NCBI RefSeq assembly: GCF_003315135.1
Contig: NZ_QNRK01000022.1
Span: forward strand, 56,463-120,462
From: Roseiarcus fermentans
Lineage (GTDB): Bacteria > Pseudomonadota > Alphaproteobacteria > Rhizobiales > Beijerinckiaceae
Reading direction: 5' to 3'
DNA length: 64,000 bases
A program made the position numbers and the translations under genes. The stretch's first letter is position 1; each line of letters begins with the position of its first letter. Of this stretch, positions 45,861 to 53,920 are shown in pieces. The notes under the pieces are model-generated. The model saw only the letters and a list, made by a program, of their open reading frames with translations. It searched no databases and was not told where the DNA came from.

Positions 45861-46352
45861 TCAGAGCGGCGCGCGTCGAAAGACGTCCTCGATCCAGTCG
45901 AGAAACACCCGCAGGCGCAACGCGAGCTGGCGGTTCTGCGGATAGAGCGCCGAGAGCGGCGTCGGCGACGGCCGATCGTCTTTCAGGATCTCCACCAGCG
46001 CGCCGGAGGCGAGATCGGCGGCGAAGCGGTAGCGCGGCGCCTGCATGATCCCGAGGCCGAGCCGCGCCAGATCCGCGAGGGTGTCGGAATTGTTGGCTGT
46101 CACCCGGCCCGGCAGAACGACGTGGCGAACGCCGGTCGCAGTCAGGAATTCGAGCGGCAGAACTTCGCCGGTTCGCGACGAGATGAAGCCGACCATGGCG
46201 TGCCCGTCGAGCGCGTCCGGCGTCTCGGGGACGCCGCGTTTGGCGAGATAATCCGGGCTTGCCACGGTGATCTCCTCGATCGCGCCGATGCGGCGGCGGA
46301 TCAGCCCGCTGTCGTCGAGATCGCCGGCGCGGATCGCGCAGTCGACGCCCTC
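45861..46352 (-). pseudogene. LysR regulator, C-terminal half only
   Basis: 164 codons of the LysR effector-binding domain: EGVDCAIRAGDLDDSGLIRR, RVTANNSDTLADLARLGLGI, GALVEILKDDRPSPTPLSAL and LRVFLDWIEDVFRRAPL to the stop. The frame is intact from 46352 to 45861, but the DNA-binding half is missing: upstream of 46352 the sequence becomes the tail of an SDR gene read from the other strand. No start codon is available, so this is a truncated gene. Confidence 0.88.
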
Positions 46353-46599
46353 CCACATCGCCGCCAAGGAGCTCGCCGCGCGCGGCGTGACGGTCAACGT
46401 CGTCGCGCCGGGGCCGGTTCGCACCGACATGTTCCTCGGCGGCAAGAGCGACGAGCAGGTCCGGGCGATCATGGCCGCCAATCCGTTCGGGAGGCTCGGC
46501 GAGCCGGACGAAATCGCCAGGGCCGTCGCCTTTCTGGTCGGACCCGACGGCGGCTGGATCAACGGACAGGTGCTGCGCGCCAACGGCGGCGTCGTGTGA
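46353..46599 (+). pseudogene. Short-chain dehydrogenase, C-terminal third only
   Basis: In frame from about 46354: HIAAKELAARGVTVNVVAPG then PVRTDMFLGGKSDEQ, NPFGRLGEPDEIARAVAFLV and GPDGGWINGQVLRANGGVV with stop. These are the post-catalytic helix, the PG motif and the C-terminal loop of a classical SDR (3-oxoacyl-ACP reductase type). The Rossmann half and the catalytic Tyr-Lys are gone. It meets the lysR remnant within one to three bases. Confidence 0.88.
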
Positions 46600-46710
46600 G
46601 GCGACGGCGCCATGGCCCCGGGTCGCCGCAACTCCGCGCGATCCATCGCAGCCGCGGATCGGCGCCGCCGACCCGGGCCGCATGTCCAGCCTTGATCGAG
46701 GAGCAATCCC

Positions 46711-46923
46711 ATGCCTTTCGCCAATATCAAGATCCCCGAGGCCGCGCTGACCGGGGCGCAGAAGGCGGAGATCGTCCATCGCGTGACCGCGATGTTCGTC
46801 GACGATTTCGGCGAGGCGGCCCGCCCGCACGCCATGGTCCTGATCGAGGAGGTTGCGGACGGCGGTTATGGACGCGCCGACGAAGTGTTCGTCGTCCCGG
46901 AAGCCTACCGGGCGAAGACCTGA
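46711..46923 (+). CDS. Tautomerase family protein
   Basis: A 70-residue member of the 4-oxalocrotonate tautomerase superfamily. Processing of the initiator Met would expose the catalytic Pro1 (MPFANIKIPEAALTGAQKAE). The helix KAEIVHRVTAMFVDDFGEAARPH and strand AMVLIEEVADGGYGRAD fit the beta-alpha-beta fold. GAGGAG precedes the ATG. It may have belonged with the SDR gene whose remnant is just upstream; that is inference. Confidence 0.82.
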   Translation: MPFANIKIPEAALTGAQKAEIVHRVTAMFVDDFGEAARPHAMVLIEEVADGGYGRADEVFVVPEAYRAKT

Positions 46924-47022: not shown

Positions 47023-47979
<957 letters not shown>

Positions 47980-48155
47980 GGCGACGGGACGTCCGGCAGG
48001 AGCGCCGCCGGCCAACGCCGGCGGACCACCCGAAAATCCACGTTGATAACAGACGCCGGCTCCGAGCGACGCGTTGTGCTGGCCACGTTAATGAAATATA
48101 CATAATCGCCAGCACGGGGGCGTTGTGTGCTGAGTTTGCCAGGGGAGTTTTTTCG

Positions 48156-49628
48156 ATGTCGGCAGTTTGGGACAAACTGTTTGGAAATTTCCAGCCGCCC
48201 GCCAATGACGCCCTCGACGAGTCGGGCGACGACCAAGGGGTAGGGGCGCAGGGCCCGTCCGCCGCTTCGGCGCCGGCTCCGGACAGCGCGCCGAAGTCTC
48301 AGACGGTGGCGCGCACGTTCGACTCGATCGGGCGCCGCAACGAGGCGTTGCGCGCCCATCTGTTCGCCGTCGAGGCGTCGTTCCGCGACATCGAAGCCAT
48401 CCGGGCCCAGTTTCACGAGAGCCTGATTCCGATCGATCAGACGCTGAGCGAGATCGAACGCACCAAGGTCGCCCACGTCGAGGCCGAACGAAAGTTCGAG
48501 ACGCTGACGGCCGCGCACGACAAGCTGAAGAACAGTCACGCCGGGCTGACGCTCGAGCGCAACGCGATGCTGGCCAAGCAGGACGAGCTTTCCGGGCGCC
48601 TCGCGGATCTGGAGCGAGGGATAAGCTCGGCCGAAGCCGCGTCGTCCGAAGCGCGCGCCGCGCTCGCCGACCGGTCGGCGAAGCTCGAGCGCGTCGAGCG
48701 GGAGCTCGAGGACAACCGCCGTCGCCTTCAGACCGTCACCGAACAGCTGCCGGCGCTTCGCACCGAGTTCGCGGCGAAGGAAAAGAAGCTTCAGGAGGTC
48801 GAGCAGCACCGCGCGAGCCTCCACGACCAGACCGACCTCCTGACCCAGGAAAACCGGGCCCTGAAAGCCCGGATCGAGGAGTTCGTCGCCAACGTTTCGA
48901 AGCTCGGGCGGAAGCTGAGCGAGCTGGAAAGCCGGCGGGACGATCTGAGCCGTCGCGTCGACGAACTGGAGACGGCGCTGGCGCACGAAACCGCGGCGCA
49001 CGCCAAGTCGAAGTCCGCGCAGCTCGATGCGGCGGAAGCCCAGCGGCTCGCCCAGACCAGCCTTCGTGAAGAGCTGAGCGCGCTTCACGCCCGGCACGAG
49101 GCGGCGGAAAAGCTCCTGTCCGAGGCCCGCACGACTCTGCGCGATCGCGAGGCCTCGATCCGCAATTTCGAGCAGCGCGCGCTCGAGCACTCGCTCGCGA
49201 CCAAATCCAAGGACGCCACGCTCGCCGATCTCGACAAGGATCTGGCCGCGCTGCGCGTCGCGCACGCCGAGGTCGACACGGCGCGGATCACCGCCACCGA
49301 GCGATCGTCCGCTCTCGCCAAGGCGCTCGAAGACCGTGAAATCGCTCTCCAGCGGGCCGAGCAACGGATCGAGGTTCTCGAAGCCAGAGTGGCCGAGCAG
49401 AACCGCATCATGCTGGTGGAGCGCGAGGCTTTCGAGCAGAGGGCGGCGAAGCTGAAGGACCAGCTCGAGGCGGAGTCGGCCTCGCGCGCCTTCGCGGAGG
49501 GCGCGTTGCAGTCGGCGAGGCAGGATCGCGGCGGACGCCGTCCGGAGGCGGACCCGCCGGCGGCCGAGGCGAACGTCGTCAAGCCGGACGCGCCGGCGCA
49601 GGAGCGGGTTGCGCGCTTCCGCGGATGA
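48156..49628 (+). CDS. Long coiled-coil protein, first of two tandem paralogues
   Basis: A 490-residue protein with no membrane segment. Residues 1-45 are a variable Pro/Ala/Asp-rich head beginning MSAVWDKLFGNF; from about residue 50 the chain is a nearly unbroken heptad coiled coil (FDSIGRRNEALRAHL, RAQFHESLIPIDQTLSEIER, ELEDNRRRLQTVTEQLPALR, REEFVANVSK-like blocks). It ends in a Pro/Ala tail and VARFRG. ATG 48156 has AGGGGAG upstream. A filament, scaffold or cell-pole role, as for crescentin-like proteins, is possible, but no function is established by sequence. About four fifths of residues match the next gene. Confidence 0.75.
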   Translation: MSAVWDKLFGNFQPPANDALDESGDDQGVGAQGPSAASAPAPDSAPKSQTVARTFDSIGRRNEALRAHLFAVEASFRDIEAIRAQFHESLIPIDQTLSEIERTKVAHVEAERKFETLTAAHDKLKNSHAGLTLERNAMLAKQDELSGRLADLERGISSAEAASSEARAALADRSAKLERVERELEDNRRRLQTVTEQLPALRTEFAAKEKKLQEVEQHRASLHDQTDLLTQENRALKARIEEFVANVSKLGRKLSELESRRDDLSRRVDELETALAHETAAHAKSKSAQLDAAEAQRLAQTSLREELSALHARHEAAEKLLSEARTTLRDREASIRNFEQRALEHSLATKSKDATLADLDKDLAALRVAHAEVDTARITATERSSALAKALEDREIALQRAEQRIEVLEARVAEQNRIMLVEREAFEQRAAKLKDQLEAESASRAFAEGALQSARQDRGGRRPEADPPAAEANVVKPDAPAQERVARFRG

Positions 49629-49791
49629 GGCGTCGGACGGGTTGGCGAGGCCGGCCTCTGGACGAGCCGACGCAAGAGAGGCGCCTTACCAAGCAGGCCA
49701 AGCGTAATTGCTCTCTTGCGTCATCGGGCTGAAACCGGCATGTGTTCAACTCTCCGCGCCCGCCCTGCGCGACCATTGGGAAATAGAAGAG

Positions 49792-51252
49792 ATGTCAACG
49801 GTCTGGACAAAAATGTTCGGAAACGCCCCGCCGCCCGCGCATGATGTTTCCGAGCATTCCGCCCAGACCAACGCGCCGGAGGCCGTGAAGAGCCGGCCCG
49901 CCGAACGGACCGGCGCCGACCCTGCGCCGAAATCGCAGGCGGTGGCGCGCACGTTCGATTCCATCGGCCGCCGTAACGAGGCGCTGCGCGCGCATCTCGA
50001 CGCCGTCGAACTTTCTTTTCGCAACATCGAACTGATCCGGGCGCAGTTCCACGAAAGCCTGATCCCGATCGACCAGACGCTGACGGAGATCGAGCGCACC
50101 AAGGTCGCCTATGTCGAGGCGGAACGGAAACTCGAGGCGCTGCTCGCCGCGCACGATCGCTTGAAGAGCGATCATGCCGTCGTGACGGTCGAACGCAACG
50201 CGATGGTGGTCAAGCAGGAGGATCTTTCCGCGCGGGTCACGGATCTCGAGCGCGGCATCGGCTCGGCCGAAGCCGCTTCGTCGGAAGCGCGCGCCGCGCT
50301 CGCCGATCGGTCGGCGAGGCTCGAGCGCGCCGAGCGCGAACTCGAGGACAACCGGCGCCGCCTCCAGGCGGTGAGCGAACAGCTGCCGGCCCTGCGGGCC
50401 GAATTCGTCGCCAAGGAGAAGAAGCTCCAGGACGTCGAGCAGCAGCGCGCGAGCCTCAACGACCAGCACCAGCTCATGACGCAGGAGAACCGCGCCCTGC
50501 GCGCCCGCGTCGAGGAATTCGTCGCCAACGTGTCGAGACTGAACCGACAGGTCAACGAGCTCGAGAGCCGGCGCGAGGACCTGAACCGCCGGATCGAGGA
50601 GCTGGAGTCCGCCGTTGCGCACGAAGCCGCGGCGCATGCGAAATTCAAGGCGGCGCAACTGGACGCCGCCGAGGCGCATCGCCTGGCGCAAACCACATTG
50701 CGCGAGGAGCTCACCGCGCTGACGGCGCGCCACGAGGCGGCGGAAAAGCTCCTGTCGGAGGCGCGCGGCAATCTGCGCGACCGCGAGGCGTCGATCCGCA
50801 ATTATGAGCAGCGGGCTCTCGAGCATTCGCTCGCCACCAAGTCGAAGGACGCGACCCTCTCCGACCTCGAGAAGGACCTCGCCGCGCTCAGACACGCCCA
50901 TGCGGAGGTGGACGCGGCGCGGACCACCGCCACGGAGCGGTCGAACAGCCTCGCCAAGGCCCTCGAGGACCGCGAGATCGCTCTGCAGCGGGCCGAACAG
51001 AGGGTCGAAGTCCTCGAAGCCAAGGTCGCCGAGCAGAACCGCATGATGCAGAGCGACCGCGACGCGTTCGAGGAACGGACGACGAAGCTGCGGGACCAGC
51101 TCGAAGCGGAGTCGGCCGCGCGCGCCTTCGCCGAAGGGGCGCTGCACTCGGCGCGACAGGATCGCAACGGGCGCCGGCCGGAGGGCGAGGCCGCGAAGGA
51201 CTCGTCCCAGGACGAGACGGCGCGGGACAAGATCGCGAAATTTCGCGGCTGA
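49792..51252 (+). CDS. Long coiled-coil protein, second tandem paralogue
   Basis: A 486-residue copy of the preceding protein. The head differs (MSTVWTKMFGNAPPPAHDVS), but from VARTFDSIGRRNEALRAHLD onward the two align without gaps for most of the length, sharing IRAQFHESLIPIDQTL, RSARLERAERELEDNRRRLQ and ASIRNYEQRALEHSLATKSK. The end IAKFRG parallels VARFRG. The head of each protein and short stretches of the coil carry most of the differences. ATG 49792 has a weaker ribosome site (AGAAGAG). Its own 163-base upstream region suggests separate transcription. Confidence 0.75.
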   Translation: MSTVWTKMFGNAPPPAHDVSEHSAQTNAPEAVKSRPAERTGADPAPKSQAVARTFDSIGRRNEALRAHLDAVELSFRNIELIRAQFHESLIPIDQTLTEIERTKVAYVEAERKLEALLAAHDRLKSDHAVVTVERNAMVVKQEDLSARVTDLERGIGSAEAASSEARAALADRSARLERAERELEDNRRRLQAVSEQLPALRAEFVAKEKKLQDVEQQRASLNDQHQLMTQENRALRARVEEFVANVSRLNRQVNELESRREDLNRRIEELESAVAHEAAAHAKFKAAQLDAAEAHRLAQTTLREELTALTARHEAAEKLLSEARGNLRDREASIRNYEQRALEHSLATKSKDATLSDLEKDLAALRHAHAEVDAARTTATERSNSLAKALEDREIALQRAEQRVEVLEAKVAEQNRMMQSDRDAFEERTTKLRDQLEAESAARAFAEGALHSARQDRNGRRPEGEAAKDSSQDETARDKIAKFRG

Positions 51253-51303: not shown

Positions 51304-53817
51304 TTACGTTCCCCTTGGCTTGGCGCGGGTCGTCGGAGCCGCGCCGGCCGGATCCTCCGGCCAGAAGTGGCGCGGGTAGCGGCCGCGCAGGTCCGATCGC
51401 ACCGCCGCCCACGAGCCGCGCCAGAAACCCGGCAGATCGCGGGTGATCTGGATCGGACGGTGCGCGGGCGAGAGGAGATGCAGCGTCAGCGGGATCGTTC
51501 CGCCGGCGACCGACGGGTGCTCGGCGAGGCCGAACAGTTCCTGCACGCGCAGCGCGATCGCCGGGCCGCCTTCGGCTTCGTAGTCGATCGCCGCCGCGGT
51601 GCCGGTCGGCGCGACGAAATGGGTCGGCGCGTCGTCGTCGAGTTTTCGCGCGAGGCCCCAGGGGACGAGGGCGTGGAGCGCGTTCGATACGTCGTCGGCG
51701 CCGATCTCGTCGAGCCGCGTCTTGCCGAGAAGGAACGGCGCCAGCCAGTCGGGATCGTTCGCCAGCCGCTCGTCGGAGACGTCCGGCCAGCTCTCGCCGT
51801 CCACCCTGTCGCCCCCGGCCCGGCGCAGGAACAGGAGCCTGCCGCGCCATTGCGCGAGCGCCTTGCTCCACGGCAGCCGGGCGAGGCCGAGCGCGAGGAC
51901 GCCGCGGGCCAGCGCCGTCGCGCTCGCCGCGTCCGCAGGCACGGCGAGGGTCTGCTCGGCGAGCGTCAGCGCGCCGAGCCGGCGCCGCCTGCGCGCCCGC
52001 AGCGACGCGGAGGCGCGGTCGAAGGCGATCTCCTCGGCGGTTTCGATCGCGGCCCCGGCGACCGCCTCGACCTCGGCAAGGCCGAGAGGGGCCGCGAGCA
52101 GAATCCGCGCCGCGGCCGCGCGGCCGGCGACTTCGCCGATGGCGAGATAGGGCTCGCCGGCGAGCGGGTCATGGGCTTCGAGCGAAGCCGCCCGCCCGTT
52201 GGCCATCAGGAACGCGCCACGCCTGCCGCGCGCCATGGCGATGCGGTCGGGGTAGGCGGACGCCAGCAGCGCGCCGGGCAGGCCGCGGGTCGAGCCCGGG
52301 GGCCCGGCGCCTCCTCCCGAGGGCGAGGGGAGGGCCTCCGCCGCCCGCTGCGCCAGTCCCCGCGCCAGCCGGCGCGCGTCCTCGGCCCGTTGCGAGCGGT
52401 CGCGGCGAAACGCTTCGAGCCGCGTCGTGAGATCGACCGCGTCGCCGCCGAGCCCGCGCTCGGTGATGAGGACGGCGACTTCGGCGGCCGTCCGAGCGTC
52501 GCCTGTCCGCGCCGCGTCGACCACCATGCGCGCGAGCCGAGGCGGCAGCGCGAGGCGGGCGATCGATCGACCCTCGTCGGCGATCCGGCCGGAGGAGTCG
52601 ACGGCGCCGATCGAGATCAGCAGGGCGCGCGCTTCCGCGAGCGCGGCGCGCGGCGGCGGATCGAGGAAGGCGAGCCTCGACGGATCGGTCTCGCCCCAGA
52701 GCGCGCAGTCGAGCAGGAAGCCGGAGAGATCCGCTGACAGGATTTCCGGCGCCGCATAGGGCGCGAGGCCGCCGGTCGCCGCCTCTTCCCACAGCCGGTA
52801 GCAGACGCCCGGCTCGACGCGCCCCGCGCGACCGCGGCGCTGGTCGGCGTTGGCCTTGCTGACGCGAACGGTGTCGAGCCGGGTCAGTCCGATGTCCGGC
52901 TCGTAGACCGGCACGCGCATGAGCCCGCTGTCGATCACCACGCGAACCCCCTCGATCGTCAGCGAGGTCTCGGCGATCGAGGTCGCGAGCACGACCTTGC
53001 GCCGGCCCGGCGGCGCGGGCGCGACGGCGCGGTCCTGGGCGCGAAAGTCCAGCGCGCCGTAGAGGGGCGCAATGTCCACGTCCGGCCGCCGGATACGCGC
53101 TGCGAGCGTCTCCGCGACCCGGCGGATCTCGCCTTGTCCCGGCAGGAAGACGAGGATCGAGCCGGTCTCGCGCTCGAGCGCCTCGAGCGTCGCCCGCGCG
53201 ACCTCGTCTTCGATCCGCGCATGGCGGTCGTGGCCGAGGTAGCGGGTGACGACGGGAAAGGCTCGGCCGAAACTCTCGATCAGCGGGGCGTCGCCGAGCA
53301 GGCGCCTGACCCGCGCGCCGTCGAGCGTCGCCGACATGACGAGCAGCCTCAGGTCCGCGCGCAGCGCGCCCTGCGCGTCGAGCGCCAGGGCGAGGCCGAG
53401 GTCGGCGTCGAGCGAGCGCTCGTGGAACTCGTCGAACAACACCGCCGCGACGCCGTCCAGCGCCGGATCGTCGAGGATCATGCGCACGAACACGCCCTCG
53501 GTCACCACTTCGATGCGCGTGCGCTTCGACACCAGGCTTTGCAGGCGGACGCGCAGGCCGACCGTCTCGCCGACCGTCTCGCCCAGGGTGGCGGCCATGC
53601 GGGCGGCCGCGGCGCGGGCGGCGAGGCGGCGCGGCTCGAGCACGATGAGCCGGCCGCCCTGCGTGAAAGGTTCGTCGAGCAGCGCGAGCGGAACGCCGGT
53701 GGTCTTGCCGGCGCCGGGCGGGGCGACCAGCACCGCGCGGGCATGCGCCGCGAGCGCCGCCCGCAGCGCGGGCAGGGCTTCGTCGATCGGAAGACGGAAG
53801 CGCGGATCGAGCGTCAT
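51304..53817 (-). CDS. hrpB: ATP-dependent helicase HrpB (DEAH/DEFH box)
   Basis: An 837-residue superfamily 2 helicase of the HrpB type. Motif I APPGAGKTTGVPLALLDE near residue 33, motif II DEFHERSLDADLGLAL (the bacterial DEFH form of DEAH), motif III SATLDG, motif VI QRRGRAGRVEPGVCYRLW. The HrpB-specific end RYPRHFWPEDPAGAAPTTRA and the HLLSPAHRPIQITRDLPGFW block are conserved. The cellular role of HrpB is not established; RNA metabolism is likely. ATG 53817 gives MTLDPRFRLPIDEALPAL, without a strong ribosome site. Confidence 0.93.
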   Translation of the reverse strand: MTLDPRFRLPIDEALPALRAALAAHARAVLVAPPGAGKTTGVPLALLDEPFTQGGRLIVLEPRRLAARAAAARMAATLGETVGETVGLRVRLQSLVSKRTRIEVVTEGVFVRMILDDPALDGVAAVLFDEFHERSLDADLGLALALDAQGALRADLRLLVMSATLDGARVRRLLGDAPLIESFGRAFPVVTRYLGHDRHARIEDEVARATLEALERETGSILVFLPGQGEIRRVAETLAARIRRPDVDIAPLYGALDFRAQDRAVAPAPPGRRKVVLATSIAETSLTIEGVRVVIDSGLMRVPVYEPDIGLTRLDTVRVSKANADQRRGRAGRVEPGVCYRLWEEAATGGLAPYAAPEILSADLSGFLLDCALWGETDPSRLAFLDPPPRAALAEARALLISIGAVDSSGRIADEGRSIARLALPPRLARMVVDAARTGDARTAAEVAVLITERGLGGDAVDLTTRLEAFRRDRSQRAEDARRLARGLAQRAAEALPSPSGGGAGPPGSTRGLPGALLASAYPDRIAMARGRRGAFLMANGRAASLEAHDPLAGEPYLAIGEVAGRAAAARILLAAPLGLAEVEAVAGAAIETAEEIAFDRASASLRARRRRRLGALTLAEQTLAVPADAASATALARGVLALGLARLPWSKALAQWRGRLLFLRRAGGDRVDGESWPDVSDERLANDPDWLAPFLLGKTRLDEIGADDVSNALHALVPWGLARKLDDDAPTHFVAPTGTAAAIDYEAEGGPAIALRVQELFGLAEHPSVAGGTIPLTLHLLSPAHRPIQITRDLPGFWRGSWAAVRSDLRGRYPRHFWPEDPAGAAPTTRAKPRGT

Positions 53818-53920
53818 AATCTGGACCAGAGTGTAGGAAATCGTGAGTGGTCGCGCCCGCACTCGACGACCCGTGGTCCCTCGTCAAGTGCGCGCGCGCC
53901 AGCAACACGAGGAGCGCGCC

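Follow-up and report, generated by a model that had tools for sequence, protein, structure and literature searches.

Two adjacent genes in Roseiarcus fermentans encode crescentin-family proteins: creS has been duplicated and both copies have been kept, in a cell in which MreB, MreC and bactofilin are not detectable. This combination is what is new here, as the crescentin family and its presence in Roseiarcus are already known. The genes, which we call creS-A and creS-B, lie on the + strand 163 bp apart and are flanked by xerC and hrpB, within a window of 64,000 nucleotides (the whole stretch of DNA that was analysed). Their products almost certainly belong to the crescentin family, and the pair is likely to have a role in cell curvature.

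The creS-A and creS-B locus

The locus is made up of the following features.

47023..47979, + strand: xerC, tyrosine recombinase (PF00589/PF02899; TIGR02224); context, a neighbour by position only
47980..48155, + strand: creS-A upstream region, 176 bp
48156..49628, + strand: creS-A, crescentin-family coiled-coil protein, 490 aa, ATG start (PF19220, 362.8 bits, profile 1-359/359)
48156..48188, + strand: CreS-A N-terminal motif MSAVWDKLFGN, predicted membrane-attachment peptide (motif conserved; function putative)
48306..48464, + strand: CreS-A residues 51-103, aligned to the crescentin N-N (head-to-head) joint; putative joint
48453..49529, + strand: CreS-A rod (PF19220)
49431..49463, + strand: CreS-A stutter region, residues about 426-436 (register shift in homologues)
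49629..49791, + strand: intergenic region 5' of creS-B, 163 bp
49792..51252, + strand: creS-B, crescentin-family coiled-coil protein, 486 aa, ATG start (PF19220, 311.3 bits; PDB crescentin, E 3.1e-14)
49792..49824, + strand: CreS-B N-terminal motif MSTVWTKMFGN, conserved, predicted short helix (function putative)
49942..50100, + strand: CreS-B residues 51-103, aligned to the crescentin N-N joint; putative joint
50089..51165, + strand: CreS-B rod (PF19220)
51304..53862, - strand: hrpB helicase (TIGR01970, 1021.6 bits); context, marking the xerC-creS-hrpB site common to the congeners G009 and G010

A preliminary description of the window had picked out two open reading frames of 490 and 486 residues beside xerC, and both are confirmed at these positions by the ORF list and the profile matches. 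Alternative longer ORF starts (GTG at 47088 and TTG at 49708) are mechanical extensions, and the ATG starts are favoured for both genes because the MS-VW-K-LF start is common to their relatives. Each gene has its own upstream region, as had also been described, and no similarity between the two regions was found (a local score of 14, equalled in 291 of 300 shuffles); a promoter scan of both found no sigma-70-like site. Terminator-like sites numbered 6, against 3.4 expected. The XerC match to TIGR02224 (E 8.4e-88, 294.6 bits) is under the cut-off of 335.15. Between a cytochrome c gene and xerC, the frame at 45861-46835 (- strand) encodes the LysR substrate-binding half (PF03466), with the DNA-binding domain absent from its Pfam matches, and shares its frame with the antisense of 46267-46599 (+ strand), resembling the C-terminal part of a short-chain dehydrogenase; this stretch probably consists of decayed, fused gene remnants.

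Both proteins match the crescentin rod family PF19220 (Rod_CreS) over the full length of the profile, and both scores are more than three times the Pfam cut-off of 100. In a PDB sequence search with CreS-B as the sole query, the solved crescentin chains were the best matches (8afl, E 3.1e-14, residues 56-460). With CreS-A as query, a protein search that scored 7996 candidates gave 233 hits at E <= 1e-20. PF19220 is present in all 120 of the 233 that were listed, and most of the names supplied by the sources are crescentin or 'chromosome segregation ATPase'. Neither the protein search nor the PF19220 model found a third creS copy in the genome. The resemblance to crescentin, first proposed from architecture, is thereby borne out by homology as well, and in the surveys the homologues are mostly single genes with a crescentin role rather than an enzymatic or SMC-like one.

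Anatomy and divergence of the two proteins

The pair shares with Caulobacter crescentus crescentin (CreS, PF19220, PDB 8afl/8afe) the full rod model, a constant rod length, conserved rod ends, a net register shift near the known stutter and a block that aligns with the N-N joint, and differs from it in being present as two copies. The AlphaFold2 model of CreS-B (mean pLDDT 74.6, pTM 0.26; input alignment of 42 listed proteins and the two window proteins) has a short helix at residues 4-8, low confidence at 14-48, long helices at 52-238 and 248-448, and a disordered linker and tail, in keeping with the long coiled-coil architecture first read from the sequence. The rod is split at 239-247, probably as a fold-back artefact of monomer prediction, and a Foldseek search of this low-pTM monomer model against the PDB gave no match. 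Rod length is fixed across the family: in a 134-row alignment (all 120 listed proteins and 14 loci), no position from 55 to 458 has more than 5% gaps, and there are 15 insertion columns, each in one or two rows. Of the first 60 listed proteins, 52 have VW[DETK][KR][LM]F within their first 12 residues; of the first 40, 35 have [KRQ][IV][AT][RK][LF]R within their last 12.

A phase-tracking script found a skip of three positions, placed at residue 429 for 14 distant homologues (one of them, L045, from the same genus) and at residue 415 for 40 close relatives, each in 4 of 4 settings. For the five rows of the pair lineage, two of the four settings put the skip at 429 and the other two at 415 and 419. 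With A and B alone, 7 of 8 runs showed a net shift of three somewhere in 415-436, accompanied by many other breaks, and the stutter is less sharply placed in them than in the homologue sets. The published crescentin stutter is at residues 406-409 (PMC10873595). With an offset of 20, taken from a CreS-B/PDB crescentin alignment that has compensating internal gaps, these residues correspond to 426-429, and residue 429 to crescentin 409.

Crescentin residues ~31-83 make the N-N longitudinal (type 2) contact of the filament (PMC10873595). The block FDSIGRRNE..IDQTL, which the preliminary description had singled out as the most conserved and a possible partner-binding part, spans residues 55-97 and lies inside the segment 51-103 that aligns with crescentin 31-83, so that a partner-binding role fits, with the partner predicted to be another crescentin dimer. 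The CreS tail aligns with the crescentin C-C contact (443-457). Caulobacter crescentin requires its positively charged N27 (PMC10873595), whereas the Roseiarcus proteins are acidic to near neutral over residues 1-27 (net charge -5 in CreS-A and -1 in CreS-B; -2 to +2 in 14 distant homologues); the basic membrane-attachment N-terminus is absent from both, with the hydrophobic VW.K[LM]F motif in its place. A basic N-terminus is known for C. crescentus and is not general across the crescentin family. We file the pair as crescentin-like and not as a proven equivalent of Caulobacter CreS.

CreS-A and CreS-B are identical at 363 of 490 aligned positions (BLASTP; 74%, with 85% positives and 4 gaps), and this identity is unevenly spread. 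It reaches 48/53 (91%) in block 51-103 and 285/359 (79%) in residues 104-462, a rod value that agrees with the earlier estimate of about four fifths, and drops to 9/32 in the linker (19-50) and 8/24 in the tail (463-486). The heads had been called different: this holds for the linker, and the tail differs as well, but the first 18 residues are 12/18 identical and have MS[AT]VW.K[LM]FGN in common. Pairwise dN/dS is low both between A and B (0.23) and between the single genes of G009 and G010 (0.24). In residues 301-400, A and B are identical at 87 of 100 positions, exceeding the 77 of 100 between B and its relative P0005. Gene conversion between the copies is not supported, since the best 60-codon DNA window was equalled in 89 of 1000 permutations.

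Fixed differences between the A lineage (3 rows) and the B lineage (2 rows) occur at 19 sites, of which 11 are within the predicted helix 52-448 and none of these at core a/d positions (about 0.025 by chance); A and B agree at 101 of the 118 core positions. A mid-rod cluster (237, 249, 251 and 253, within residues 237-253) makes up four of the 11 helical differences and lies at the break in the AlphaFold2 model. The g-e' charge score over 92 pairs was 16 for A-A, 14 for B-B and 15 for A-B, and P0002 and P0005 gave the same. Since core sites are conserved and the A-B score is intermediate, mixed dimers or filaments should be able to form, and we think it fairly probable that A and B would physically co-assemble if both are expressed. 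The hetero-filament suggested in the preliminary description is therefore permitted by the charges, which give mixing no preference. Keratin-type filaments are obligate heteropolymers, also built from two paralogous subunits per cell. In the Roseiarcus pair, by contrast, charge does not favour the A-B dimer over the two homodimers, and we reject an obligate, keratin-like A-B heterodimer.

History and distribution of the pair

Two congeners, G009 and G010, have a single creS between xerC and hrpB. The same interval in a third, G003, holds another gene and no creS; from its sequence we take this gene to be of the NAD-dependent epimerase/dehydrogenase type. PF19220 matches above the cut-off were found in 4 of the 11 genomes of the genus. 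The match in G002 is 29-30% identical and sits on a different contig from the xerC of that genome, and G004 gave three flagellin matches and none to crescentin. One comparison of homologue loci covered 16 of 20 (without L048, L052, L055 and L059), with start codons chosen by hand. The single creS of G009 (L044:3219-3266) ends before the conserved C-terminal motif, and tblastn similarity runs about 15 codons past its stop.

A tree was built from 44 rows, namely two loci and 42 of the 120 listed proteins, with CreS-A and CreS-B counted among the latter. In it, CreS-A groups with P0002 and P0004 (support 100/98) and CreS-B with P0005 (100/99), while A and B are sisters with just 80/90 support. 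P0002 is 84.9% identical to A and P0005 76.4% identical to B. P0002 and P0005 are each listed on one contig of 155,034 bases, and judged by this length a second genome very probably holds both copies. If so, the duplication predates that split and both copies were retained. The comparisons thus show the family assignment, one creS at this site in each of two congeners, and separate A and B lineages with members in other genomes.

Seventy of 298 genomes sampled from the family pass the PF19220 cut-off and two have two passing matches, but only in this genome are the two adjacent, those of G172 being on two contigs. In a sample of 397 genomes from the order, 6 pass and the adjacent pair is again found only here. 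The survey of how often homologues are tandem, which the preliminary description had proposed, gave this one adjacent pair in both samples; the family, MreB and order surveys scored the best few candidates per genome, so that further pairs could hide, as they could on short contigs in the family and order samples. In G172, the two crescentin-like genes (contigs C83 and C3; L061 and L062) are unlinked and both less than 30% identical to those of the window.

A cell without detectable MreB and explanations of the pair

Matches to the MreB model (TIGR00904) at E <= 1e-40 were found in 0 of the 298 family genomes, with 8 of 14 controls positive. The R. fermentans genome gave weak matches of 22-44 bits alone (cut-off 365.75), two of which sit in frames that we judge to be of DnaK length. 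MreC was found in 0 of the 11 genus genomes (controls positive in 8 of 14), and bactofilin likewise in 0 of 11 (controls positive in 4 of 14). Hyphomicrobiales have been described as lacking MreB and its elongasome and as growing at a pole (PMC10259793). Crescentin, which curves Caulobacter cells, probably works together with MreB, a guide of wall building, and in Caulobacter it leaves its membrane position upon inhibition of MreB or of wall synthesis; the structural study proposes that it slows passing elongasomes, while treating its bending mode (elongasome slowing or mechanical) and its route to the membrane as unsettled (PMC10873595). As MreB was not found in the 298 genomes nor MreC in the genus, the elongasome-slowing model cannot apply unchanged here.

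R. fermentans is described as pink and non-motile, a thick curved rod that contains bacteriochlorophyll (PMC11936349), and its genome gave two photosynthetic reaction-centre matches (Photo_RC). Hallgren et al. 2025 (PMC12700997) likewise describe the species as curved, and report that it encodes a crescentin-like protein and lacks genes for flagella and pili. The same study, which shares both protein family and order with our pair, found that the homologue of Chelatococcus reniformis restores curvature to a Caulobacter creS deletion, a complementation done in a host that has MreB. The words 'MreB', 'tandem' and 'two copies' do not occur in its main text, and among the matches listed from open-licence PMC literature, no title or abstract start covers the MreB conflict or a tandem pair. 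In the same order, bactofilins of Rhodomicrobium vannielii are a parallel case of an accessory cytoskeleton whose interacting paralogues shape an MreB-less cell (PMC10259793), although they belong to another protein family, one without a match in the 11 Roseiarcus genomes. A flagellin match was not found in the R. fermentans genome. Flagellin is absent exactly from the three genus genomes with xerC-linked creS (this genome, G009 and G010) and present in the other 8. A tie between crescentin and the loss of flagella was considered and rejected: across the family, flagellin is lacking in 14 of 70 crescentin genomes and in 70 of 298 overall, so there is no general link.

These observations suggest a mechanism in which the short N-terminal helix MS.VW.K[LM]FGN would anchor each dimer to the membrane. 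Parallel coiled-coil dimers, each made of A, of B or of both, would meet head to head at block 51-103, which hardly differs between the paralogues, and tail to tail at ends that do differ. Both subunits could thus enter one filament, whose spacing, length or attachment would be tuned by the tails and linkers. The filament would form a band along one side of the cell. With no MreB-MreC elongasome to slow, we propose that this band either serves as a mechanical strut or biases wall growth in its polar or septal zone, giving asymmetric new wall and a curved cell. Filament assembly, membrane attachment and curvature by A and B are all things that we infer. As a whole, the explanation that A and B co-assemble into a band at the membrane and so bend a cell growing at its pole has in our judgement an even chance of being right. 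The heads, which are not basic as the N27 of Caulobacter crescentin is, count against it, as do the neutral A-B charge score, the blurred stutter of A and B, the 80/90 support for A and B as sisters and the lack of a Foldseek match.

Dosage by itself could keep both copies, which also counts against co-assembly: both genes would yield the same homopolymeric crescentin, with more protein, or two promoters, being useful. Unrelated upstream regions, low pairwise dN/dS and the lack of any core site among the 11 fixed helical differences speak for such a duplicate. However, the A and B lineages stay distinct at 19 fixed sites, and copies kept solely for dosage would often show gene conversion, which is not clear here (89/1000 permutations); we regard dosage as unlikely, though the strongest of the rivals. 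A regulatory role is less probable again: one paralogue, for which B as the faster-changing of the two is the better candidate, would cap or limit the filaments of the other and thereby set length or curvature. The lower identity of B orthologues (76.4% versus 84.9% for A) and the strongly different linkers and tails, the latter aligned with the C-C contact, would suit such a regulator, yet B retains the rod length, the joint block and both end motifs, with no truncation.

By far the least probable is an SMC-like, chromosome-segregation coiled coil working with XerC. It would account for the weak similarity of the coils to SMC proteins (E 1.4e-11 and 3e-11), for the JGI database name 'chromosome segregation ATPase' of homologues and for xerC adjoining creS-A. 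The SMC matches, however, score 42.9 and 41.8 bits where 567.35 are required, and they cover nothing but internal coil of the SMC model; no ATPase family is among the Pfam matches of either protein, and both lack an ABC ATPase head and a full-length SMC match. creS has xerC and hrpB as neighbours in the congeners G009 and G010 and in none of the other 18 homologue loci, several of the 20 being short contigs. For that reason a functional creS-xerC link is unsupported and was rejected, and the position beside xerC seems to be without functional meaning.

To return to co-assembly, its boldest form, in which two subunits with interchangeable heads but unlike tails make up one filament and this filament bends a pole-growing bacterium without MreB, MreC or bactofilin, is one that we hold tentatively and at rather less than even odds. 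If it is true, intermediate-filament-like curvature would be a mechanical, MreB-independent device in which filament length or bend depends on the tail that is used. Elongasome slowing and mechanical bending can be told apart in a lineage such as this one, where crescentin has been retained, and here doubled, while MreB is not detectable, and the pair offers a natural test of mixed filaments among bacterial intermediate-filament-like proteins.
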